Shown: positions 9,735 to 29,818 of the stretch, one piece after another | Layout: the number at the start of each line of letters is the position of its first letter | Numbering within the stretch: position 1 is the stretch's first letter | DNA from: Desertivirga xinjiangensis | GTDB lineage: Bacteria; Bacteroidota; Bacteroidia; Sphingobacteriales; Sphingobacteriaceae | Direction: 5' to 3' | Length of the DNA: 64,000 bases | Assembly: GCF_024436435.1 (NCBI RefSeq) | Contig: NZ_JAFMZP010000008.1 | Location: 124,001 to 188,000, forward strand | The notes under the pieces: generated by a model | What the model saw: only the letters and a program-made list of their open reading frames with translations | Told to the model about the DNA's origin: nothing | Databases searched by the model: none | Position numbers and translations under genes: made by a program

Positions 9735-11759
9735 ATGAAAACGTCAATCATAACGAAAATAGCAAGAGTAGCCATCGTCATCCAGATGATTGTTATGGTC
9801 TCATCTTGTAAAAAAGATTATTTAAATATCGACAATTATTTCGACGACGAATTTAACATCGATTCAGCTTTTGCTAATCCTCGTAACATCGAAGCTTATA
9901 TGTGGGGCGCCGCGGCAATGTTTCCAGACGAGTCAAACACCATTCGTTTCGGTTACACACCTGGTCCGATGGCTACTGATGAAGGTTTAAACGGACTTAC
10001 AGGCGGGGGGGCAAGCAACGTCTATTATGGGATGGATTTTGCTACAGGGCGTATCTCTCCAGATTTCTTCGGAGATAGCAACCCTAACCTAAATCAATGG
10101 GGTGTATACTACAAGATCATTCGAAAGTGTAACAGTATCTTGCAAAACTTAGATCGCCCGAGAGGCTTTACAACCGCAGACCGCCTCCGTATAGAAGGCT
10201 ACACCCGTTTTATCCGAGCTTATGCGTATTATAATATCCTGGTAGATTATGGTCCAGCGATCCTGCTTAATGATGAGGTGGTAAATACAAACGAACCCAT
10301 TGAATATTATGATCGTGCCAGAGCTACCTACGATGAAACAATGGATTATACTTGCACTGAGTTTGAAAAGGCAGCAGTGCTTCTTCCAAAAGAAGTGTCA
10401 TTGCTAGACTTTGGCCGGCCTTCAAAGGGTGCTGCTTTTGCTTTAGTTGCCCGCCTGCGTCTTATTCATGCAAGTCCGCTGTTCAACGGTGGTCCAGCTG
10501 CTAGTTCTTATTTCGGTAACTGGAAACGGAAGACAGACAATGTAAACTATGTATCACAGCAGTACGATGAATCAAGATGGGCTGTGGCTGCGGCTGCAGC
10601 AAAGCGTGTAATGGACATGAACCAATACAGGCTATACACTGTACCGAGCGATGATAACACACCTTCACTTCCAGTAGGCGTTACCTCAGATCCAAACTTT
10701 TATGGTACTTATCCCGATGGCGCCGCGGGAATCGACGCGCTGAAATCTTATTCTGATATCTTCACCGGCGAAGCAGTTGCTGAGATTAATAAGGAAATTA
10801 TCTGGGGTAGAAACACAAACTACCTGGTATCCACTATCAGTCAAGGTTCAATGCCTCCATCTTTAGGTGGCTGGGGCCGCTTCTGCGTTACACAGAAAGT
10901 AGTCGATGCTTATCTGATGGACGACGGACGGACGAAAGAAGAGGCTTCCGCTGACGGATATTATTCCGAGACTGGATTCACTGATAAGCCTAGAAACTTC
11001 TCAGGATATCCGCTCAATTCGGGTGTATACAAAATGTATGCTAACCGCGAGATGCGCTTTTATGCATCGATTGGGTTTAACGAGGCAGTTTGGCAAGCAC
11101 AATCTAGCAGCTCGCTAAACAGTCATACTGCAAAGTACTATTTTCAGGATGCAGACGGTAGAGGTGGGGTAACAGCAACATCGCCGAACTATCCGATTAC
11201 TGGCTATGTAATCAAAAAATATAACCACCCGATGGATGCGTTTCAGGGTACAGGTGCCCGACATATCAAAAAGGCTTACTCTATTATTCGCTATGCAGAA
11301 ATCCTGTTATCCTACACAGAGGCGCTTAACAAGTTAACTGGTAGCCACACAGTAACACTGGGAGACCAGCAATACACTGTTTCACGTGATGTTGACCAGA
11401 TGAAAGGGGCGTTCAATCTGGTACGTTACAGAGCGGGTCTTCCGGGGCTTAACACAACGCAGTTAAGTAGCGCTACTCAAGTTCAGAAAGAGATTGAGCG
11501 CGAACGTATGGTAGAACTGCTATGGGAAAACAGACGTTATTACGATGTTCGCCGCTGGGGCATTTACGAGGAAACTGAGCGTGAGCCAATCCGTGGAATG
11601 AACCCTGACGGAGCTACCAAGGAGGATTACTACCAGCGAGTTATTCCTGGAACGTCCTCCTTCATGTCTCGCGTAGTTAATAAGAAGTTAGTGTTTATGC
11701 CCTTACCACGCGTGGAACTGAGAAGATTGCCGTCTGTGGATCAGAATCCGGGTTATTAG
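9735..11759 (+). CDS. susD: SusD/RagB-type surface nutrient-binding lipoprotein
   Basis: A 674-residue lipoprotein (signal ending VSSCKKD). It shows the SusD fold: N-terminal TPR-like helices (IIRKCNSILQNLDR, GYTRFIRAYAYYNIL) and the C-terminal block RYAEILLSYTEALNKL followed by RERMVELLWENRRYYDVRRWG. It is longer than average for SusD (usually 500-600). The extra length lies in loops of the middle region, where ligand binding usually takes place. It forms the lid of the SusC transporter encoded 19 bp upstream. The binding specificity cannot be predicted from the sequence. Confidence 0.93.
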   Translation: MKTSIITKIARVAIVIQMIVMVSSCKKDYLNIDNYFDDEFNIDSAFANPRNIEAYMWGAAAMFPDESNTIRFGYTPGPMATDEGLNGLTGGGASNVYYGMDFATGRISPDFFGDSNPNLNQWGVYYKIIRKCNSILQNLDRPRGFTTADRLRIEGYTRFIRAYAYYNILVDYGPAILLNDEVVNTNEPIEYYDRARATYDETMDYTCTEFEKAAVLLPKEVSLLDFGRPSKGAAFALVARLRLIHASPLFNGGPAASSYFGNWKRKTDNVNYVSQQYDESRWAVAAAAAKRVMDMNQYRLYTVPSDDNTPSLPVGVTSDPNFYGTYPDGAAGIDALKSYSDIFTGEAVAEINKEIIWGRNTNYLVSTISQGSMPPSLGGWGRFCVTQKVVDAYLMDDGRTKEEASADGYYSETGFTDKPRNFSGYPLNSGVYKMYANREMRFYASIGFNEAVWQAQSSSSLNSHTAKYYFQDADGRGGVTATSPNYPITGYVIKKYNHPMDAFQGTGARHIKKAYSIIRYAEILLSYTEALNKLTGSHTVTLGDQQYTVSRDVDQMKGAFNLVRYRAGLPGLNTTQLSSATQVQKEIERERMVELLWENRRYYDVRRWGIYEETEREPIRGMNPDGATKEDYYQRVIPGTSSFMSRVVNKKLVFMPLPRVELRRLPSVDQNPGY

Positions 11760-19991: not shown

Positions 19992-20029
19992 AACAGGGAG
20001 AGAGTTGTTTAGTGCAACTGATGAGATAT

Positions 20030-22231
20030 ATGAAAACAAAAATTTTACTAAGTTTATTATTGGTATCCTCTCTCGGGATTTATTCCTGTAAAAAAGATGG
20101 GCAGATTGATGGTCTGGCTGGCGTAGTCAAACTTGCCGACGTGAATGTGCCTGATGGGTTCACCTGGGAGTCATCCAGGGATATCAACTTTAAGATAGCT
20201 ATTGCTGACAATCGTTTCCAGGATAATATTCATGTGATTGCCATTTATTCGGCAGATGGCGGGCTGATTACCAAAGGAGCGGCTTCCCTTACTAAACCTT
20301 TTGAGAGCAAGGCTTATGTTCCGCGAACAGTGAGCGAGGTATTTGTGGTCAAAACGGCTCCCGACAACTCATCCACTTCTCAAAAAATCCGGTTAGATGG
20401 TGATAAAGTCACATTGACCTTAAGTGCACCTCTTGTTCAAGCCGTAAGTTCGGTCAACAGTGCTTTTAATACTTCTTCTGATAGTCCCGATTGTACTACA
20501 GGCTGTTCCGAGACGATAACCTTGACTACAAACTCGCAAACGGTTTCCGTATCTGGTGGAAAAACTATCTGTGTGAATGGCAGCAATAAGTCTTTTGATG
20601 TTCAGTTTGGTTCGGGAGGCGGAACTTTAAGGATCTGTGGTACTAATCTTACCATCCAGGAATTAGCGAATAACAGGATCAATGATCCAATGGCAATCAT
20701 CATAACTGCTGATGCCAGTGTTACCTTTGATGAGAAAAGGGCGACAAACTTTAATCAGAATAACAATACGCTGGAAAATTATGGACACCTTACTATTGAA
20801 GGTGGGATAAATCTTGCCGGTAAATTAAAAAACTTTGGTGTGTTGACTGTCAATGGCGAGTATAGTACGGAAACACAAACCAGTCCTGTTACAGAACATA
20901 CCAACAATGGGACACTGATAGTCAATGGCCAGTTAGACGTAGGGTCTAATAGTTTCTTTTACAATAACGGGTCTGTTAAAGCGACCGATTTAAGGGTTTT
21001 TAACCACGCAACATTTATCAATAATTGCAAGTTGTTAGTAACAAACGAATATGATCATAGTACTTTGATGAAGAACTATGGTTATATCAAAGTCGACGGA
21101 GAAATATTTGTTAACGGATCGTCTGAACTGGCCCTTTACGGTGGGTCGATGATAAGCACCAGGGACATCAAAATAAACGGAACTATCAAAGGGTACGATT
21201 CGGGCTCCTTATTTAAAGTAAGTAATGAAACAGAACTGACCGGCGCCGGGACGCTGACCGGTAATTTCAGTTATTGTGATGCTAACGGGCTTGAAAAAAA
21301 CAATGGAACCATTGAACATACCGTATCTCTGAATTGCAACTTATATATTCCTGTGTCTGGTTGTAATGCAGAGGGTAATGGAAGTGCTCCTGTTAAGGAT
21401 ACTGATGGGGACGGGGTGCTGGATAATATTGACGATTATCCACATGATGCTACTAAAGCGTTTAATAACTATTATCCCGGGGGGGGAGTTGACGACGGCG
21501 CAACGATTCTTTTTGAGGATATGTGGCCGGTGAAGGGTGATTATGACATGAATGATATAGTAATGTCTTACCAGTTAAAGGTGGTTACCAATGCTGCCAA
21601 CAAGGTGGTCGAGCTTAGTGGTTCGTATAGCTTAAATGCCCGCGGGGGGATTTTTGAAAATGGCTTCGGCATAGAGTTTCCAATAAACCGCAGTTTAGTA
21701 AGTAATGTTAAAGGCGCTATACTGGAAGAAGGTCAGGATAAAGCAGTGCTTATTTTGTTCACCAATATGCAAAACGAGTTGCCGTACATGAATACGCGCG
21801 CAACAGATCCTTTCTCTCCTGCAAAAACGTATATGATCAGTTTCTCCGTAACTAATGGTCCTTCTTTAAGTGAATTCGGCCTCGGAGAATATAATCCCTT
21901 TATCTGGAATAGAGGAAAAGGGCGGTCTTATGAAGTTCATCTACCCGGACATATGCCAACAAGTCTGGGAGATCCGAAGCTTTTCGGTTCTGGTCATGAT
22001 GCAAGCAATCCATCAAAAGGTATGTATTACGTTACATCTGAGGGTTTTCCCTGGGCTATCAGCGTTCCGGTGAAAAATCTTTCTTATCCTCTTGAAGGGA
22101 TGGACATCGGCACTGCCTATTTAAAATTGTCACAGTGGGTTATGTCTGGCGGTGTTAACTTCAATGACTGGTATAGCAATCGCACTTCCGGCTACCGGAA
22201 TGAGAATAACTTTTATAAAGCAGGGGAATAA
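20030..22231 (+). CDS. LruC-domain lipoprotein, copy 2
   Basis: 733 residues, very close to copy 1 over its whole length: same signal type (GIYSCKKD), same VPDGFTWESSRD sandwich, same putative beta-helix, same DTDGDGVLDNIDDYPHD calcium loop and C-terminal LruC domain. A 152-bp stretch at 21290-21441 is identical to 18901-19052 in copy 1, while the flanks differ at many silent positions. I chose the ATG at 20030 by analogy with copy 3 (MKKKFLLS); in-frame GTG at 20012 and ATG at 20021 are alternatives. It is followed by a strong terminator. The three copies probably arose by tandem duplication and may serve as variable surface proteins. Confidence 0.88.
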   Translation: MKTKILLSLLLVSSLGIYSCKKDGQIDGLAGVVKLADVNVPDGFTWESSRDINFKIAIADNRFQDNIHVIAIYSADGGLITKGAASLTKPFESKAYVPRTVSEVFVVKTAPDNSSTSQKIRLDGDKVTLTLSAPLVQAVSSVNSAFNTSSDSPDCTTGCSETITLTTNSQTVSVSGGKTICVNGSNKSFDVQFGSGGGTLRICGTNLTIQELANNRINDPMAIIITADASVTFDEKRATNFNQNNNTLENYGHLTIEGGINLAGKLKNFGVLTVNGEYSTETQTSPVTEHTNNGTLIVNGQLDVGSNSFFYNNGSVKATDLRVFNHATFINNCKLLVTNEYDHSTLMKNYGYIKVDGEIFVNGSSELALYGGSMISTRDIKINGTIKGYDSGSLFKVSNETELTGAGTLTGNFSYCDANGLEKNNGTIEHTVSLNCNLYIPVSGCNAEGNGSAPVKDTDGDGVLDNIDDYPHDATKAFNNYYPGGGVDDGATILFEDMWPVKGDYDMNDIVMSYQLKVVTNAANKVVELSGSYSLNARGGIFENGFGIEFPINRSLVSNVKGAILEEGQDKAVLILFTNMQNELPYMNTRATDPFSPAKTYMISFSVTNGPSLSEFGLGEYNPFIWNRGKGRSYEVHLPGHMPTSLGDPKLFGSGHDASNPSKGMYYVTSEGFPWAISVPVKNLSYPLEGMDIGTAYLKLSQWVMSGGVNFNDWYSNRTSGYRNENNFYKAGE

Positions 22232-22280
22232 ATAGTCGCTCAGGGGCTTAGTTTCCCCGAAACGGGGAAGTGTTATTTTA

Positions 22281-22328
22281 AAATTGGGGAAATTTAAGCA
22301 CAGGCTGTAATTTCCCCAATTTGTTTTT
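22281..22328 (+). terminator. terminator after LruC copy 2
   Basis: A perfect 14-bp stem, AAATTGGGGAAATT (22281-22294) with AATTTCCCCAATTT (22309-22322), is followed by GTTTTT. A shorter hairpin (TTCCCCG-AAA-CGGGGAA) precedes it just after the stop codon, so copy 3 has its own promoter. Confidence 0.85.
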
Positions 22329-22419
22329 GCGAAGCGAGTATTGCATTAAATTCAGGTTTAAGTCGCTGTAAACAAGCTATTGTGGTTGCTTTCCGCTTAT
22401 TATATATACACGAATCCCA

Positions 22420-22436
22420 ATGGCATGCTCCTTGAA
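22420..22436 (+). promoter_or_regulatory. box shared upstream of LruC copies 2 and 3 (second occurrence)
   Basis: ATGGCATGCTCCTTGAA, 53 bp before the copy 3 ATG, matches 16 of 17 bases of the box at 19975. The region between the two terminated genes is otherwise diverged, so the conservation points to function. Confidence 0.35.
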
Positions 22437-22472
22437 CCAGGAGGGGTGTTGTTTCAGAACAATTGACGATAT

Positions 22473-24671
22473 ATGAAAAAAAAGTTTCTACTAAGTTTAT
22501 TATTCATTTCTACCCTGGCTATTTATTCTTGTAAAAAAGATGGGCAGTCAGACGGGCAACTGAATGTTGACAAGCTCACGGATGTTAAAGTCCCGGATGG
22601 CTTTACATGGGAGTCTTCAAGGGATGTTACTTTCGACGTTTCAGTTACCGATGTACGCTTTTCTGATGCTATACACCAGGTTGCGATTTATGGTACTGAC
22701 GGCACTCTTTATTCGAAGGGGTCCGCTACTTTAAGCGCTCCTTTTAAAACTAAAGTTTATCTCCCCTCTACAATTGAGGAAGTTTTTGTTGTGAAGACTG
22801 CTCCTGATAATTCAAGCGTTTCTCAGAAGGTGCAGGTGAGGAGCTCCTATATAGCGTTGTCTTTAGGCGCTTCTCTCAAGCTTGAAGGCCTTTCAGCGGT
22901 AAATACATCAGGGACGTCTGCAATTAGCCCTGACTGTACATCAGGTTGCAATCAAAGTATATTACTTACTCAAAATTGGCAGAATGTTAGTGTTTCAAAT
23001 GGTCAAACCGTTTGTCTTACAGGTTCTAATAAAATATTTAACGTAGAATTAGGAAGTGGTGGCGGTACGCTTAAGATTTGCGGAACAGGATTAACTGTTC
23101 AAAACTTAAACAAAAACTCCGGAACGTCTGCTGTGGAGATTATTGTATCGGCAGGCAGTAATGTGTCGTTCTCTAATCTCGATCTTGACAGATCAAGTCA
23201 CGTGTTAAAGAACTATGGAACGGTTACTTTTTCTGGAAATCTGGCGTGTTCAGGCAAAGTAAATAATTACGGAGCTTTAACGGTTAATGGCGATTACAAC
23301 ATTAATTCCGGAAACGTTTCGGGGCATACCAACGACGGTGTACTAACTGTTGGTGGTACAATGAATGTGAACAGTACCACTTCTTATACAAATAACGCCT
23401 CTGCGACCATAAAGAAGCTTCAGGTAAATAGCAATGGTGTTTTCAATAATAACTGTAAGCTAATCGTTGTTACCAATACAATAATAGATAAGACATTAAA
23501 CAACTATGGTTATGTTTCGGTAGGTACAAGTACTCAAATAAATGCCAATGCTAAGATCAATCTCTACAGCGGTGCATTATTCGTAACTAAAGATCTGGAA
23601 AAGATCGGTGGTCATTTTGTAGGTAATGCAGGTACTTCTCTGGTTAATATAACGGGAACAATTGATAACAATTTGATTCTTGATGCCAACCAAACATCAA
23701 ATGGTCAGAAATTTATAGGTCCGTTGCAGGTATGTTACAAATCAACGCTTACTGAAAGATTATTTAAAGAGGGGGCAGTCCAGGGATGTGACCTTTATAT
23801 TGCACCTACAGGTTGTACTCCGGGCAACGGCGAAAGCCAGGTTGCTGATTCAGATGGTGATGGCGTGTCCGATAATCTGGATGATTATCCAAATGATCCC
23901 GAAAAAGCCTATGACAATTATTATCCTGGGCCAGGTTCAAATGCAGGAGCTACAGTAGCGTTTGAGGATCAGTGGCCAGTAAAAGGCGATTACGACATGA
24001 ACGACGTGGTTATGTCTTACCAGTTAAAGGTGGTTACTGATGCACAGAATAAAGTAGTGGAAGTAGCAGGTACATATAACCTTCAGGCGCGTGGTGGTAT
24101 TTTCCATAATGGTTTCGGCATAGAGTTCCCTGTGAGCCGCTCATCTGTTAGCGATGTAATCGGAGGTACCCTTGAAGAAGGTCAACAGAAAGCAGTAATT
24201 ATCCTCTTTGATAACATGCATGCTGAGATGTATTCTTATAATACTCGTAAGGAAGAGGCGGTGTTGCCAGCAAAGTCATACCCAATTAGTTTTAAAGTTA
24301 GTAATGGTCCGCTTTTGGCTGATTTTGGATTGAGTGAATACAATCCATTTATCTGGAATAAAGTTGCAGGCCGCGGTTATGAGATCCATTTACCTGGTAG
24401 AAAGCCAACTTCTCTTGCCGATGTAAGCTTATTCGGAACAGGAGATGATAATTCAAGTGTAGCTGCTGGCAGATATTATATCAGCCCGGATGGCTATCCA
24501 TGGGCGATAAGTATCCCTGTTAAGGAGTTCAATTATCCGGTAGAAGGTAAGGATATTGTTAAAGCTTACTTAAGACTTCCAATGTGGATCTCTTCAGGCG
24601 GAAGTAGTTATACGGACTGGTATTCTAATACCGGAAGCGGTTACCGGAACACTTCTAACCTGTTTAAATAG
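22473..24671 (+). CDS. LruC-domain lipoprotein, copy 3 (diverged)
   Basis: 732 residues with the same architecture as copies 1 and 2. It has a lipoprotein signal (AIYSCKKDG), the VPDGFTWESSRDVTF sandwich, a repetitive putative beta-helix (HVLKNYGTVTFSG, VNNYGALTVNGDY), a calcium loop DSDGDGVSDNLDDYPND and the LruC/DUF4842 domain (FEDQWPVKGDYDMNDVVMSY). It is much more diverged than copies 1 and 2 are from each other, above all in the central repeat region, which suggests that this part is under diversifying pressure while the C-terminal domain is conserved. A terminator lies 28 bp after the stop and closes the array. Confidence 0.88.
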   Translation: MKKKFLLSLLFISTLAIYSCKKDGQSDGQLNVDKLTDVKVPDGFTWESSRDVTFDVSVTDVRFSDAIHQVAIYGTDGTLYSKGSATLSAPFKTKVYLPSTIEEVFVVKTAPDNSSVSQKVQVRSSYIALSLGASLKLEGLSAVNTSGTSAISPDCTSGCNQSILLTQNWQNVSVSNGQTVCLTGSNKIFNVELGSGGGTLKICGTGLTVQNLNKNSGTSAVEIIVSAGSNVSFSNLDLDRSSHVLKNYGTVTFSGNLACSGKVNNYGALTVNGDYNINSGNVSGHTNDGVLTVGGTMNVNSTTSYTNNASATIKKLQVNSNGVFNNNCKLIVVTNTIIDKTLNNYGYVSVGTSTQINANAKINLYSGALFVTKDLEKIGGHFVGNAGTSLVNITGTIDNNLILDANQTSNGQKFIGPLQVCYKSTLTERLFKEGAVQGCDLYIAPTGCTPGNGESQVADSDGDGVSDNLDDYPNDPEKAYDNYYPGPGSNAGATVAFEDQWPVKGDYDMNDVVMSYQLKVVTDAQNKVVEVAGTYNLQARGGIFHNGFGIEFPVSRSSVSDVIGGTLEEGQQKAVIILFDNMHAEMYSYNTRKEEAVLPAKSYPISFKVSNGPLLADFGLSEYNPFIWNKVAGRGYEIHLPGRKPTSLADVSLFGTGDDNSSVAAGRYYISPDGYPWAISIPVKEFNYPVEGKDIVKAYLRLPMWISSGGSSYTDWYSNTGSGYRNTSNLFK

Positions 24672-24743: not shown

Positions 24744-25595
24744 TTATTCAACTACAGCTGAATCGCAGATATAGGTGGGAACTATGCCAGTGGCATTGAT
24801 CCTGGTTATTGCATCTCCGGGAAGGGTGTTGCCGCTTAACACCAATATGGTATCGAAGCCGAATTTATTTCCGCCTAGAATATCGGTATGCAGCGTATCG
24901 CCAACCATTACAATATCTTTTTTTACAATCGGTCTGCGCTCCCGAATAAGATCATAAGCAAACATAAACATCTGAGAATCGGGTTTGCCAAAACGGATGA
25001 ATTTACGGCCGACTATGGTTTCGATCATGCTGGCTATTCCACCCGCGGCAATGGATACCTCATTTTTTGTAACCGGATAAGAAAAGTCAGTGTTGGCAAC
25101 AATTACCGGTATTGGTCGCTTCCTGATGAGGTTTACCGCTGTGTTTAAGTCTTTAAACCAGTCGAAACCTTCATCGTCCAGAAATACCAGGGCACTCACC
25201 TTGTCTATGTTGCTTTCATCGATACTGCTGACGGGCAGGGTATGAAGATCGGAGTCGTCTATGTAATGGGCTGAATTCGGAGTCCCAAGATAAGCTACAA
25301 TGCCTTCATGCACTTTGAGATCGAGGTACTCTTTTGCAAGCATCCCGGAAGATACGATCCTGTCGGCAGTAACCGCATAAAGACCTGCCCTGTGGTAGGA
25401 TTCTGCAAGTTGAACCGGACTCCTGGAAGCGTCGTTTGTTACAATGTAAAATTCTTTATTTTGAGCCTCGAGATACTCAAATGTGTTTTCGATTCCAGGT
25501 ACAAGGCCTTTATAATTTTTTAAAACCCCGAAAGCATCGAAGAAAACTATTTTATACTGGTCAATTACTGATCTGAAATCTGAGAGTTGTATCAT
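24744..25595 (-). CDS. HAD-IIA family phosphatase
   Basis: 283 residues with the NagD-like HAD-IIA fold. Motif I reads FFDAFGVL with D20 as the nucleophile; the usual second Asp is replaced by Phe at position 22, as in the DxFGV subgroup. Motif II is the TND (ITNDAS-type, VTNDASRSP) and motif III is GDTLHTDILGG near residue 233. Such enzymes hydrolyse small phosphate esters in the cytosol. It is the last gene of a three-gene operon, 29 bp after a kinase-like gene. Loss of the acid/base Asp in motif I may slow turnover or restrict the substrate. A kinase and phosphatase side by side suggests that a phosphorylated metabolite is made and removed within one pathway. Confidence 0.82.
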   Translation of the reverse strand: MIQLSDFRSVIDQYKIVFFDAFGVLKNYKGLVPGIENTFEYLEAQNKEFYIVTNDASRSPVQLAESYHRAGLYAVTADRIVSSGMLAKEYLDLKVHEGIVAYLGTPNSAHYIDDSDLHTLPVSSIDESNIDKVSALVFLDDEGFDWFKDLNTAVNLIRKRPIPVIVANTDFSYPVTKNEVSIAAGGIASMIETIVGRKFIRFGKPDSQMFMFAYDLIRERRPIVKKDIVMVGDTLHTDILGGNKFGFDTILVLSGNTLPGDAITRINATGIVPTYICDSAVVE

Positions 25596-25624
25596 TCTTT
25601 ATAAATATAACAGGAAATTATTTC

Positions 25625-26659
25625 TTACTTGAGCTTTAAGGCGTTCAATATCTTTTTCGCATCAAAATCCCTGTCGATCGACGGAAGATAGATATCAAAT
25701 GCTTCAGCCTGAAGTTTTTTGGCGTATTGTTCGTTAAAGAAGTAAGTCCCATCTTTAATAACGTAGTTAAGAATGAAAAAACGATACACTTCCTTTAAAA
25801 AGCGAATCTCGTTGGAACTTAGGGGATTCACTTTGTGGTACTCCTGGAGGAAGATCAGGAAGCGTTCTTCCATCATAGGACTTATCACATAACTGAAGAC
25901 GGTACGGTCGCCGATATCAGAAACTACCCTGCTGAAGAAATAGAAGTCCATCATGCGGGTACTCATCCGGAACCAGTCATAGTCCCAGCGCGAATAAAGT
26001 TTTAAACCGGGGGTGACGGAGAAGTTCCCGATGTTCCAGTCGATGAAGACAGGTATAGATTCAAAAGCGTCGGCTTTACATTTCAGGCGGTTCACCAGAA
26101 ATTGATCGCAATGGTGCCTTAGGACTTCTTTTTGCTGCTCGTCGAATTCCTTCTGTGTTTTCCTGCTAAGCTGTTTTAACAGGACATTGACGTCTGTACG
26201 TAGTGTTTTCGATGATTTGGGTAGGTTCTTAACTTTCGAACAGGCTCTGTGAAAGCGGCCGATCTGTTCGCCCAGTTTGCGGATCTGGTTTTCGTCGAGA
26301 CGACGGGGAAGGCGTTGCTGTACCCTTACAGGGTTGTAGAATATTACCCAGGCGTCTGTCTTTGCTTTTTTATAGTGGTATGTAAAAACCCTGTTGTTCT
26401 TTAACAGTGATTTTGCAAGCACATTTTCGAAGGGATAGAGTAAGTTGTTGGCTAAAGAATGAATGATGCGGTGATCTTCCTTAAAGTGTTCATACTTGCC
26501 AAAATAGGATAGTTTAGCAATTACAATATCATCATCATCAAAAGTTACCCTGAAAACATGATTGGTTGAAACCATCGCGCTGATATCCTCAATTTTACGG
26601 ATGATTTTTGTTGGGTCGTATTCCTTCCAGGCTTTTTTAATAATAAGTGAATAATCCAT
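25625..26659 (-). CDS. APH/choline-kinase-fold phosphotransferase
   Basis: 344 residues from the ATG at 26659, only 1 nt after the stop of the upstream ligase gene, which fixes the start. The catalytic loop reads FIDWNIGNF (D207, N212), equivalent to HxDxxxxN. The metal-binding DxD follows as YSRWDYDW (D226, D228). The N-terminal lobe has VFRVTF and IVIAKLSYF, where K49 is the likely ATP lysine. This is the fold of aminoglycoside, choline, ethanolamine and homoserine kinases. No antibiotic-specific features are seen, so a small-metabolite kinase is more likely than a resistance enzyme. It lies between a glutamine-synthetase-like ligase and a HAD phosphatase in one operon. Confidence 0.75.
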   Translation of the reverse strand: MDYSLIIKKAWKEYDPTKIIRKIEDISAMVSTNHVFRVTFDDDDIVIAKLSYFGKYEHFKEDHRIIHSLANNLLYPFENVLAKSLLKNNRVFTYHYKKAKTDAWVIFYNPVRVQQRLPRRLDENQIRKLGEQIGRFHRACSKVKNLPKSSKTLRTDVNVLLKQLSRKTQKEFDEQQKEVLRHHCDQFLVNRLKCKADAFESIPVFIDWNIGNFSVTPGLKLYSRWDYDWFRMSTRMMDFYFFSRVVSDIGDRTVFSYVISPMMEERFLIFLQEYHKVNPLSSNEIRFLKEVYRFFILNYVIKDGTYFFNEQYAKKLQAEAFDIYLPSIDRDFDAKKILNALKLK

Positions 26660-26660
26660 T

Positions 26661-28019
26661 TTAAATGATCTCAAAATATCTTTTTAGTTCCCAGTCGCTT
26701 ACCTGTTTTGAGAATTTTTTCCACTCCCAGATACGAGTGCTGGTGAAGTGTTGAACAAACTCATCCCCAAAAAGATCCTTTGCCAGTGATGATTCCTGCA
26801 TGATCAGCGACGATTCGTACAGGTTTGATGAAAGCCGGGCACTCGACTTATTTTCATAGGCATTGCCTGCTGTTGAGGCAATATCGAGTTTCAGCTTATG
26901 TTTAATGCCGTACAGTCCTGAAGCCAAGGCTGCGGAAATTGCCAGATAAGGATTTGTATCTGATCCGGGAATCCTGGTTTCGAGGCGGGTATACTGATGT
27001 GAGGTATTGATCACACGTAGTGCCGTGGTTCTGTTTTCGATGCCCCAGGTAACGGTAGTTGGAGCCCAGGCACCTTCAACGAGGCGCTTATAACTATTGA
27101 TGGTTGGAGCATACATAGGCAAAATATGGGGTAGGCAATATAGCTGACCAGCCAGGTAGTGCTTCATCAGTTCAGACATCTTATCGGGCTGATGCGGGTC
27201 ATAAAAGAGGTTTGCTGACTGCTCTTTATTCCATAAGCTCTGATGTACATGGCCGCTGCAGCCAGGTAATTCCTCATTCCATTTCGCCATGAAAGAGGCC
27301 AGGATCCCATGTTTGTAAGCAATCTCTTTCACTGCGGTTTTGAGTAGTATTGCTTTGTCTGCAGCCTTCAATACTTCATCATGCGTAATTGCTGCTTCGT
27401 ACACGCCGGGACCAGTTTCGGTATGCAGGCCCTCCAAGCCTATATTGAAATCTGCCAGGCGGTTAAAGAGATCATTATTAAAGTCGTTATAAAGAGAAGG
27501 GCGAAGTATGGAATAGCCGAACATGCCAGGCGTAATCGGCTGGAGATTGCTAAAATTTTTTTGCTGCAGACTGTCGGGTGTTTCTCTGAAATTGAACCAT
27601 TCAAATTCCTGGGCAAACTCGGCATGGTAGCCAAGGTTATCACAGTCTTTTATAATGCGTTTTAGCAAGCTTCGGGGACAAGCAGGAAGATCGTTTCCAT
27701 CGGCTTTACTAAAGTCAGCCAGGAAGAACGGTAAATTATCCTGCCATGAAATAAGGCGGAAAGTTTCAGGATCGATACGGCAAAGCTGATCGGGAAAGCC
27801 GGTTTGCCAACCAGTTACTTCAACGTTTGGATATAGCTCATCAGCGCTATCCCAGCCAAAAATCACATCGCAAAACCCATAGCCGCTTTCAAGTCCGTCA
27901 AGAAACTTTTGGCTGCTTATTATTTTGCCGCGTAAAATACCATCTATATCTGCAAACGCAAACTTTATTTTTGCTATATTATTTTCCTTTAAATACCTGA
28001 TGATCTCTTGCTTATCCAT
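26661..28019 (-). CDS. glutamine-synthetase-like gamma-glutamyl ligase (PuuA/GlnA-homologue type)
   Basis: 452 residues of the type I glutamine synthetase superfamily. It has the N-terminal beta-grasp (IKFAFADIDGILRGKII) and a catalytic domain with all expected active-site elements: the E-x-E pair in FAQEFEWF, ETGPGVYE, GCSGHVHQSL, NSYKRL, IENRTTALRV and LETRIPGSDTNPYL. The true glutamine synthetase of the genome is a different type II enzyme 730 bp away. The absence of the adenylylation-type C-terminus and the short variable loops also point to a gamma-glutamyl-amine ligase such as gamma-glutamylputrescine or gamma-glutamylethanolamide synthetase. It heads an operon with a kinase and a phosphatase, and a gamma-glutamylcyclotransferase gene is divergent at 62 bp. 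Substrate not determined. Confidence 0.85.
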   Translation of the reverse strand: MDKQEIIRYLKENNIAKIKFAFADIDGILRGKIISSQKFLDGLESGYGFCDVIFGWDSADELYPNVEVTGWQTGFPDQLCRIDPETFRLISWQDNLPFFLADFSKADGNDLPACPRSLLKRIIKDCDNLGYHAEFAQEFEWFNFRETPDSLQQKNFSNLQPITPGMFGYSILRPSLYNDFNNDLFNRLADFNIGLEGLHTETGPGVYEAAITHDEVLKAADKAILLKTAVKEIAYKHGILASFMAKWNEELPGCSGHVHQSLWNKEQSANLFYDPHQPDKMSELMKHYLAGQLYCLPHILPMYAPTINSYKRLVEGAWAPTTVTWGIENRTTALRVINTSHQYTRLETRIPGSDTNPYLAISAALASGLYGIKHKLKLDIASTAGNAYENKSSARLSSNLYESSLIMQESSLAKDLFGDEFVQHFTSTRIWEWKKFSKQVSDWELKRYFEII

Positions 28020-28081
28020 TAGTGTCGTGTTTTACGTGCTTAAGGTCATTTAAAAGATAAATATAAACGATTTTAGCTCTT

Positions 28082-28510
28082 ATGGAACATACAAATCAAT
28101 TGCTTTTTATTTATGGCACCCTGCTGCAAGTGGGGAACGAATTCGCCGAATATCTAAGGGCAAACAGCACCGTCATTTCGCGCGGAAAGTTTAAGGGGAG
28201 ATTATATGATCTGGGAAGTTATCCTGCTGCAGTGTATGATAAAAGAACCAATGCTTATGTTTACGGAACCATCGTCAAGATGGAAAAGGTTGACGAGGTG
28301 TTGAAGCATCTCGATTATTATGAGGGAATCGGGCAAACTTACTGCGAATACGAAAGGGTTTTGATTGAAGTGGAGAGTGAGGGGGCTGGTGATCTGGTGA
28401 AAGCATTGTCGTGCTGGGTATATATGTTTAAGCTGTCTGAAAGAGGGCTGAAATTAATCAGTGGCGGGGACTATTTGGAGTATAAGAACGGTTCGAAGAA
28501 CCTACGATAG
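28082..28510 (+). CDS. gamma-glutamylcyclotransferase family protein (AIG2/GGACT-like)
   Basis: 142 residues with the AIG2-like cyclotransferase fold. The substrate loop YGTLL is at residues 11-15, a GRLYDLGSYPAAV block follows at 39-51, and the catalytic glutamate is probably E81 in LDYYEGIG. The GGACT class releases 5-oxoproline from gamma-glutamyl amines; other members act on gamma-glutamyl amino acids. The gene is transcribed away from the gamma-glutamyl-ligase operon from a 62-bp shared intergenic region, so both may respond to one regulator. Ligase and cyclotransferase together would form and cleave the same kind of bond. Confidence 0.85.
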   Translation: MEHTNQLLFIYGTLLQVGNEFAEYLRANSTVISRGKFKGRLYDLGSYPAAVYDKRTNAYVYGTIVKMEKVDEVLKHLDYYEGIGQTYCEYERVLIEVESEGAGDLVKALSCWVYMFKLSERGLKLISGGDYLEYKNGSKNLR

Positions 28511-28684: not shown

Positions 28685-28720
28685 AAAAATAAAAAACCCC
28701 TGAATCTCTTCAGGGGTTTT
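28685..28720 (-). terminator. terminator of the type II glutamine synthetase gene
   Basis: AAAACCCCTGAA (28693-28704) and TTCAGGGGTTTT (28709-28720) make a 12-bp stem with a 4-nt loop. On the minus strand it is followed by TTATTTTTTC. It lies 31 bp after the stop. Confidence 0.88.
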
Positions 28721-28750: not shown

Positions 28751-29761
28751 TTAAACAGTAACCGATTTAACAGTTTTGATGATACGTGCTGCTACTTTGT
28801 AAGGATCTGCCGCAGAGTTTGGACGACGATCTTCAAGGTAACCTTTCCATCCCCATTTAGGAACTACAACAGGGATACGGATAGAAGCACCACGGTCAGA
28901 TACTCCATAAGAGAAATCATGGATAGAAGCAGTTTCGTGTTTACCAGTTAAACGTTTGTCGTTGTCAGCTCCGTAAACATCGATGTGCTCTTTTACAACC
29001 GGACGGAACGCTTCGCAAACTTTTGTGAAGATTTCCTGGCTGCCTGCAGTTCTTAGTAAAGTATTTGAGAAGTTTGCGTGCATACCTGAACCATTCCAGT
29101 CTAACTCACCAAGAGGTTTGCAATGCCAGTTGATCGATACTCCGTATTTCTCTCCGATTCTTTCTAATAAATAACGGCCAATCCAGATCTGGTCGCCGGC
29201 TTCTTTAGCACCTTTAGCAAAGATCTGAAATTCCCACTGTCCGGCCGCTACTTCGGCGTTGATACCTTCAACATTTAAACCTGCTTCTAAGCAAACGTCT
29301 AAATGCTCTTCGATAATCTCCCTTCCATATGCGTTTTTAGCGCCAACAGAACAGTAGTAAGGACCTTGTGGAGCAGGGTAACCATTTGCAGGGAAGCCTA
29401 AAGGTTTATTAGTCTCGTTGTCCCAAAGGAAATACTCTTGTTCGAAGCCAAACCAAAAATCATTATCATCATCTTCGATAAGTGCACGGCCATTTGACTC
29501 ATGCGGATTTCCGTCAGCATCAAGTACTTCGCACATTACCAGGTAACCATTTTTTCTTTGAGGGTCAGGGCAAATGAACACTGGTTTTAAAATACAGTCA
29601 GAAGAACCACCTGGTGCCTGCTCGGTTGAAGAACCATCAAAGCTCCAAAGAGGGCAATCCTCTAATTTACCGCTAAAATCTTTTTCAATTTTTGTTTTGC
29701 TACGAAGGCTTTGTGTGGGTTTATAGCCATCAAGCCAGATGTACTCTAATTTTGCCGCCAT
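28751..29761 (-). CDS. glnA: type II glutamine synthetase
   Basis: 336 residues of the short, eukaryote-like GSII class: LEYIWLDGYKPTQSLRSKT at the N-terminus, WSFDGSSTEQAPGGSSDC, the metal-binding FGFEQEYFLW, GINAEVAAGQWEFQIF, WNGSGMHANFS and the C-terminal SIRIPVVVPKWGWKGYLEDR with RRPNSAADPY. It makes glutamine from glutamate, ammonia and ATP in the cytosol and is the probable main ammonium-assimilating enzyme. A strong promoter precedes it and a strong terminator follows, so it is a single-gene unit. It is unrelated in class to the ligase-like gene 730 bp downstream, though both belong to the same superfamily. Confidence 0.96.
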   Translation of the reverse strand: MAAKLEYIWLDGYKPTQSLRSKTKIEKDFSGKLEDCPLWSFDGSSTEQAPGGSSDCILKPVFICPDPQRKNGYLVMCEVLDADGNPHESNGRALIEDDDNDFWFGFEQEYFLWDNETNKPLGFPANGYPAPQGPYYCSVGAKNAYGREIIEEHLDVCLEAGLNVEGINAEVAAGQWEFQIFAKGAKEAGDQIWIGRYLLERIGEKYGVSINWHCKPLGELDWNGSGMHANFSNTLLRTAGSQEIFTKVCEAFRPVVKEHIDVYGADNDKRLTGKHETASIHDFSYGVSDRGASIRIPVVVPKWGWKGYLEDRRPNSAADPYKVAARIIKTVKSVTV

Positions 29762-29788: not shown

Positions 29789-29818
29789 CAAAAATATTGT
29801 ATTGAATTTTGATTTCAA
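29789..29818 (-). promoter_or_regulatory. promoter of the type II glutamine synthetase gene
   Basis: On the minus strand TTG (29818-29816), 19 bp, then TATTTTTG (29796-29789) is a full match to the Bacteroidota promoter (TTG-N19-TAnnTTTG). It lies about 28 bp before the ATG at 29761. Short repeats of TTGAAAT/ATTTCAAAAT further upstream (about 29850-29890) may bind a nitrogen regulator. Confidence 0.65.

Follow-up and report, generated by a model that had tools for sequence, protein, structure and literature searches.

Three genes of Desertivirga xinjiangensis raise the question of why a glutamine synthetase (GS)-like ligase should be encoded together with a kinase and a phosphatase-like enzyme whose active site is unusual. 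They lie on the minus strand of a 64,000-nt stretch of contig NZ_JAFMZP010000008.1 (hereafter the window): GSL (26661-28019, 452 aa) is the first gene of the operon and encodes a putative gamma-glutamyl-amine ligase, KIN (25625-26659, 344 aa) a predicted kinase of the APH/choline-kinase fold, and HAD (24744-25595, 283 aa) a HAD-IIA enzyme whose motif I has lost the general-acid Asp. With 1 nt between the stop of GSL and the start of KIN, which we took as the ATG at 26659 (the mechanically derived open reading frame (ORF) begins at an upstream TTG), and 29 nt between KIN and HAD, the three genes form a tight operon.

We find that the module is real and, as far as our literature searches reach, undescribed: these searches returned no description of a GSL-KIN-HAD module, in line with an earlier sequence-only reading of the locus that knew of no pathway with such a set. 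The ligase half of the module fits a known kind of pathway, and the kinase-HAD half is new in such a setting. We tentatively favor the view that GSL-KIN-HAD is a phosphorylating branch of gamma-glutamylethanolamide metabolism. The sequence-only reading is partly supported: its coordinates, its spacings (1 nt between GSL and KIN, 62 bp between GSL and a divergent gamma-glutamylcyclotransferase-like gene, GGACT) and its family assignments hold when compared with ORFs and model scores.

Distribution of the three genes

Searches found KIN in 55 of the 201 genomes that represent the order and in 42 of the 395 that represent the phylum. A separate search for HAD returned 42 of the 395 phylum genomes, and this set is identical to that of KIN. 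The two matches are spaced by 8-277 nt in 41 of these 42 genomes and by 2.3 kb in the remaining one (G443). Because the same 42 genomes are found and the spacing is this narrow in 41 of them, the pairing is not due to chance, and KIN and HAD are an obligate pair. GSL, counted across the phylum from matches with E up to 1e-100, occurs in 41 of 395 genomes, 35 of which are KIN genomes; in all but one of these 35, GSL and KIN are separated by 4-653 nt. This closeness spans two classes of the phylum. GSL is hence the usual, not the constant, partner of KIN-HAD (35/42). A looser GSL profile matched 47 of 247 genomes, including 30 KIN genomes. Relatedness of the genomes confounds all of these co-occurrence counts. 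A search of plasmids returned no relatives of KIN.

We further inspected named loci. These 80 are the best among 511 confirmed KIN loci, and many come from Mucilaginibacter, which like Arcticibacter belongs to the family of the window (Sphingobacteriaceae), so that their counts are not independent. HAD is visible in 79 of them, GSL in 71, a second glutamine synthetase gene (GSII) in 67, GGACT in 60 and all five genes in 56. The sole named locus without a visible HAD (L067) lies on a contig that stops too early. Nine named loci were scored as lacking GSL; four of these have at most 1.1 kb of upstream sequence, among them L098, whose partial copy at a contig end was scored as missing by the score filter. 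GSL is inverted in L081. The GSL of L162, the locus of genome G493, was missed by the ORF caller; it is therefore absent from the tree and the residue tables, and its context was taken from match coordinates. The residue tables include only ORFs above a length and score filter. By KIN, the nearest relative among these 80 loci is Desertivirga arenae (85%). In L142 (genome G385), a Mur-ligase-like gene (10387-11751) lies directly upstream of KIN-HAD and matches the murC and mpl models below their cut-offs; we considered a role in cell-wall recycling and rejected it, given this single case below the NCBIfam cut-offs.

Properties of the encoded enzymes

GSL carries the catalytic domain of glutamine synthetases (Gln-synt_C, 310.5 bits) and scores well below the cut-off for glutamine synthetase type I (TIGR00653, 228.2 vs 429.15 bits) as well as under that for gamma-glutamylputrescine synthetase. 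The flap sequence YEAP of solved archaeal glutamine synthetases aligns with AWAP in GSL, where the position of the flap Glu327 is Trp318 in 94 of 94 GSL sequences. In the same comparison, the positions of Asp50 and Tyr179 align with Gly55 and Met166, with Gly55 unsure as it lies beside a gap, and with the archaeal GGY taken, in our own reading, to represent Tyr179. According to passages of a report on Streptomyces GlnA4 and PauA7, both enzymes have lost Glu327, Asp50 and Tyr179 and carry Phe and Trp, respectively, in the flap (PMC6529630). Like gamma-glutamylethanolamide ligases, GSL thus combines a GS catalytic domain with a bulky nonpolar residue in place of Glu327. Since the ammonia-specific flap Glu is replaced by Trp318, GSL should not make glutamine. 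On its score and this replacement, we rejected a glutamine synthetase proper among the candidate functions; GSL is probably not a glutamine synthetase and appears to be built like an amine ligase, not an ammonia ligase. The full active site assigned by the sequence-only reading therefore holds for the residues taken as metal and substrate ligands and fails for the flap Glu. The three genes do co-occur in other genomes, and the ligase, judged by these residues, would not be an enzyme that makes only glutamine. Its best solved relatives are 11zs and 5dm3, the latter of which we take to be a Chromohalobacter protein from an ethanolamine cluster.

No model of Pfam or NCBIfam recognizes KIN at a score above its cut-off. 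Its score for Pfam APH (PF01636) is 13.5 bits against a gathering threshold of 23.2, and 4 of 30 members of its family match this model at E <=0.1 (best E 0.0081, an estimated ~16 bits). A sequence search against solved structures gave three chance-level matches. The AlphaFold2 model, built from 30 sequences, nevertheless shows an APH-type fold (pLDDT 85.2). Its top three structural matches are amicoumacin kinase, YihE (1zyl, second best, Z 19.5) and aminopropanol kinase (6ef6, Z 19.3), with Z of 19.3-19.9 over 292-304 residues, followed among others by N-acetylhexosamine kinase (4ocj, Z 18.5) and ethanolamine kinase (2qg7, Z 16.6); identity to the solved chains is 10-15% among the 50 matches listed. 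Lys49, Asp207, Asn212 and Asp226 are conserved in 96 of 96 sequences. We take Asp207 to be the catalytic residue and Asp226 a metal ligand, with Lys49 and Asn212 in their customary roles, and presume that Phe205 stands where the catalytic motif usually has His. KIN thus shares the predicted fold and these four residues with the APH/choline-ethanolamine kinases of PF01636, and differs from them in its score below the gathering threshold, in Phe205 and in its low identity to the chains listed. With fold and catalytic residues in place, it looks active by its sequence.

HAD exceeds the cut-off of the HAD-IIA model TIGR01460 (127.6 vs 100.15 bits) and narrowly misses that of TIGR01459 (HAD-IIA hyp4, 100.5 vs 103.75 bits). 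Its motif I reads D20-A21-F22-G23. The sequence-only reading had pointed to this Phe as a sign of an unusual substrate, and the residue is real: position 22 is Phe in 75 and Tyr in 27 of 102 sequences, the window included, and the general-acid Asp is never present. The nucleophile D20 as well as K204, D233 and D238 are found in 102 of 102 sequences, and the residues checked in motifs II-IV are invariant save for one row at D55. The closest structure is 2hx1 from Cytophaga hutchinsonii (67% identity, Z 39.1), an orthologue titled 'possible sugar phosphatase' for which a literature search found no functional paper; the best fold match after it is chronophin (Z 30.5). In comparison with the HAD-IIA phosphatases chronophin, NagD and 2hx1, HAD has the same whole-length fold, Asp nucleophile, motif III Lys and motif IV Asp pair, and differs by Phe or Tyr two residues past the nucleophile, where Asp is expected. 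A site without a general acid suits a substrate with a good leaving group or an attack at another atom, the latter exemplified by L-2-haloacid dehalogenases, which likewise have Phe or Tyr in place of this Asp.

Distant relatives of HAD occur in other settings. In the Roseobacter loci L190 (5977-6816) and L193 (5896-6801), HAD-IIA genes with a DAYG motif I follow directly after phnDCE-like transporter genes, near genes for a TRAP transporter. These relatives, from Loktanella and Sulfitobacter, close phnDCE-like operons, a context that hints at phosphorus compounds. In Paraburkholderia (L192, 5356-6900), a HAD-IIA part with a DAMG motif I follows an N-terminal extension and adjoins a phosphoserine aminotransferase gene.

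Ethanolamine clusters and two proposed fates of the ligase product

The substrate of the ligase is suggested by the genomes that contain GSL without KIN. In six of six such genomes, GSL lies directly beside an ethanolamine permease gene above the TIGR00908 cut-off and an Fe-alcohol dehydrogenase gene. The same neighbors flank the GSL of G322, a KIN genome, and the Fe-alcohol dehydrogenases of the six are 66-78% identical to that of G322. In five of the six and in G322, the ORFs further show, by sight, an aldehyde dehydrogenase gene and mostly an amidohydrolase-like gene; models were run on ethanolamine-cluster genes for G322 only. By analogy, these GSL-only genomes carry clusters of the known gamma-glutamylethanolamide type. 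Such a layout is proposed for the GlnA4 pathway of Streptomyces coelicolor in passages of PMC6529630, and passages of PMC10132767 give a similar layout, from proteomics and related operons, for the ethanolamine gamma-glutamylase operon of Phaeobacter. In the known pathway, gamma-glutamylethanolamide is oxidized by alcohol and aldehyde dehydrogenases and then cleaved by an amidohydrolase.

We compared the GSLs of the two settings. An unrooted tree was built from 38 GSLs out of 94. The six GSLs from ethanolamine clusters that were placed in it, that of G322 among them, fall on one side of a branch (support 96/94) between two KIN-linked groups, and a single alignment position separates the two kinds under the criterion used (P351 vs V/I, 88 vs 6 rows). 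The ethanolamine-cluster context of the orthologues, the tree placement and the single separating position make it likely that GSL catalyzes the same reaction in both settings. An amine or amino-alcohol substrate, as the sequence-only reading had proposed, is thus supported by these clusters together with the Trp flap.

At a threshold of at least 66% identity, the Fe-alcohol dehydrogenase is found in 7 of 48 genomes, namely the six GSL-only genomes and G322, whose gene served as the query; it was not found in the other 41 of 42 KIN genomes, where the best match is 33%. In this sample, GSL therefore pairs either with the oxidizing set or with KIN-HAD. G322 holds GSL with the oxidizing set, and KIN-HAD elsewhere without GSL. 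Because the dehydrogenase is missing from 41 of 42 KIN genomes, KIN-HAD looks like an alternative fate of the same product: phosphorylation instead of oxidation. With ATP, GSL would ligate glutamate through its gamma-carboxyl group to an amino-alcohol of short chain length; ethanolamine is the most likely one, and the product would then be gamma-glutamylethanolamide. KIN would transfer a phosphate onto the free hydroxyl group of this product, in keeping with a fold common to small-molecule kinases, including aminopropanol and ethanolamine kinases. HAD would then use Mg2+ and the Asp nucleophile to act on the phosphorylated compound, with no general acid of the customary kind, and GGACT may strip the glutamyl group as 5-oxoproline in Sphingobacteriaceae. 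Compared with the known pathway, the orthologues of GSL in seven Bacteroidota genomes adjoin the ethanolamine permease and the Fe-alcohol dehydrogenase, whereas in the window, and in 34 of the 35 genomes that contain GSL as well as KIN, the ligase is followed or adjoined by a kinase and a HAD-IIA gene, and neither permease nor dehydrogenase lies beside the GSL of the window. Around the GSL of the window, genes for uptake of ethanolamine, for the alcohol and aldehyde dehydrogenases and for the amidohydrolase are thus not clustered.

Several observations weigh against a phosphorylating branch. Seven of the 42 genomes with KIN-HAD have no GSL; L080, L082, L097, L127 and L134 lack GSL despite 4-10 kb of upstream sequence, and the sole GSL of G322 lies on a different contig from KIN-HAD, in the ethanolamine cluster. 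An action of KIN on the product of GSL, as proposed by the sequence-only reading, is thus not a necessity. The fold matches of KIN point to no particular substrate. The 28 f24 genomes and the genome of the window have no permease above cut-off, and eutBC, which serves ethanolamine, is present in some KIN genomes. Among KIN genomes, GSII is no less constant than GSL. For the oxidizing route, the genome-wide search covered the Fe-alcohol dehydrogenase and not the aldehyde dehydrogenase and amidohydrolase. A phosphatase acting after a kinase would run a futile cycle, and the general acid that it would normally need is absent from HAD, which makes simple dephosphorylation, a step of the sequence-only reading, doubtful.

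We also considered ethanolamine import as a trait common to KIN genomes and rejected it, as the permease exceeds the cut-off in only 9 of 42. In four of these it lies beside eutBC (by model match in G003, by sight in G006, G009 and G443), in G263 and G353 beside a different set of GS, SDR, ALDH and amidotransferase genes, in G322 beside GSL, and in G562 and G385 with neither eutBC nor a GS-type set recognized. Loci L178 (by models) and L177, L179 and L181 (by sight) show the permease beside eutB and eutC in genomes that also have GSL-KIN-HAD, which gives two ethanolamine-related systems per genome. A second gamma-glutamylation-like cluster is seen in KIN genomes without GSL (L183, 6973-12488; L184; L185; L186). 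It contains a GS-like gene (31-33% identity to GSL), an SDR gene, an aldehyde dehydrogenase gene and an amidotransferase-like gene, the last of which is missing from L186; L183 and L184 also have an ethanolamine permease (models for L183 only).

Competing explanations and neighboring genes

KIN-HAD might instead be an independent metabolite module, for example a kinase and a phosphatase that use different positions of the same sugar or amino compound, with GSL and GSII as neighbors through shared nitrogen regulation only. The occurrence of the pair with or without GSL, N-acetylhexosamine kinase 4ocj among the fold matches of KIN and the Mur-ligase-like gene upstream in L142 favor such a module. 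We nonetheless consider it doubtful: the distance between GSL and KIN does not exceed 653 nt in 34 of 35 genomes, which span two classes, and the Mur-ligase neighbor was seen once, under the NCBIfam cut-offs.

A second alternative ties KIN-HAD to glutamine synthetase itself. GSII (28751-29761, minus strand, 336 aa) lies beyond GGACT and encodes a canonical GlnII-like glutamine synthetase (NF041605, 407.5 bits, under the cut-off of 500); the genome of the window holds three GS-domain genes, the third of which, besides GSL and GSII, lies in a frame of 725 residues and so matches GSIII in size. KIN could phosphorylate GSII, and perhaps GSL, and HAD could remove the phosphate, so that the pair would tune nitrogen assimilation with GSL as merely a frequent neighbor. 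GSII was found in 50 of 236 genomes, 31 of them KIN genomes and 19 others; the 42 KIN genomes include 11 more, which are not among the GSII matches and perhaps not all within the 236, and two of the 11 (G475 and G529) have GSII near KIN. In the family of the window, GSII is found in 0 of 20 KIN-less genomes, with positive controls. GSII adjoins the pair in differing arrangements, also where GSL is absent: GSII-[GGACT]-GSL-KIN-HAD, GSII-KIN-HAD (L165-L168) and KIN-HAD-GSII followed by a 729-aa ORF (L080, L127, L134), which in L127 is GSIII. A regulatory role draws its chief support from this distribution of GSII. The fold matches of KIN to YihE and of HAD to chronophin fit as well, as we take YihE to be a protein kinase and chronophin to act on proteins too. 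Because KIN-HAD is also found without GSL, beside canonical GSII, a GS-linked role is a serious rival. Against it, GSII lies far from KIN in many genomes (e.g. G264, G263), the cluster may come or go as a block within one family, and HAD has no general acid, on which a phosphoserine phosphatase should depend. GSII also seems to have its own transcription signals: a promoter-like match (TTGA-N18-TATTTTTG, 29789-29818, minus strand; loose pattern, no shuffle control) lies upstream, and a terminator-like 12-pair hairpin with a T-rich tail (28693-28720, minus strand) downstream, and GSII is therefore probably its own transcription unit. On balance we regard a regulatory role as unlikely.

The sequence-only reading had joined all four genes in a cycle of gamma-glutamylation, phosphorylation, dephosphorylation and release of 5-oxoproline by GGACT. 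GGACT (28082-28510, plus strand, 142 aa) is a divergent neighbor whose membership in the module is unproven. It matches PF06094 (65.9 vs 22.8 bits) and shares the YGTL motif and the catalytic Glu with gamma-glutamylamine cyclotransferases; this Glu81 is present in 60 of 60 sequences. It is near GSL in 60 of the 80 named loci, and in 56 of these GSII, GSL, KIN and HAD all stand alongside it. This link, which sets GGACT apart from known cyclotransferases of this type, is seen only in Sphingobacteriaceae (wherever a genus is given for the named loci) and metagenome-assembled genomes. In 35 diverse KIN loci outside the window, some of which end early at contig ends, the 8 genes to either side of KIN include none that clusters with GGACT, with limits on identity and coverage in the clustering that might hide very divergent copies. 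With 37-49% identity to the gene of the window (20 sequences), GGACT is also much less conserved than GSL, KIN and HAD. The conserved four-gene neighborhood expected by the sequence-only reading thus holds for GSL, KIN and HAD and is weak for GGACT (60 of 80 named, 0 of 35 diverse loci). Together with a dephosphorylation step that is doubtful both chemically and logically, this makes the four-step cycle improbable.

Very improbable, finally, is a variant in which KIN phosphorylates the hydroxyl group of gamma-glutamylethanolamide and HAD breaks the carbon skeleton thus activated, so that two carbons are split off as one unit and the nitrogen stays behind in glutamine; if true, it would constitute a second, ammonia-free route to glutamine and would explain the tie to glutamine synthetase genes.

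The divergent intergenic region between GSL and GGACT (28020-28081, 62 bp) is the presumed start of the operon. Using a loose pattern and no shuffle control, we found 0 Bacteroidota-type promoter matches and nothing convincing in it; its right end is overlapped by a single minus-strand match of sigma-70 type (28070-28099), which is weak. On the other side of the operon, two long ORFs of 739 and 732 aa, lipoprotein-like and similar to each other, stand in tandem (20012-24671 and upstream), and the gene list hints at a third of similar size. An anti-phage defense system was rejected, as PADLOC models gave 0 matches for the four proteins at E 0.001.

The locus ties a kinase family missed by the model libraries searched and an odd HAD enzyme, that of 2hx1, to a gamma-glutamyl-amine ligase and thereby provides concrete candidate substrates for both. 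If KIN-HAD acts on glutamine synthetase, the pair would represent a new regulator of nitrogen assimilation. If the module acts on gamma-glutamylethanolamide, as we tentatively propose, amine metabolism in some Bacteroidota would have a phosphorylating branch in addition to the oxidizing one already known.

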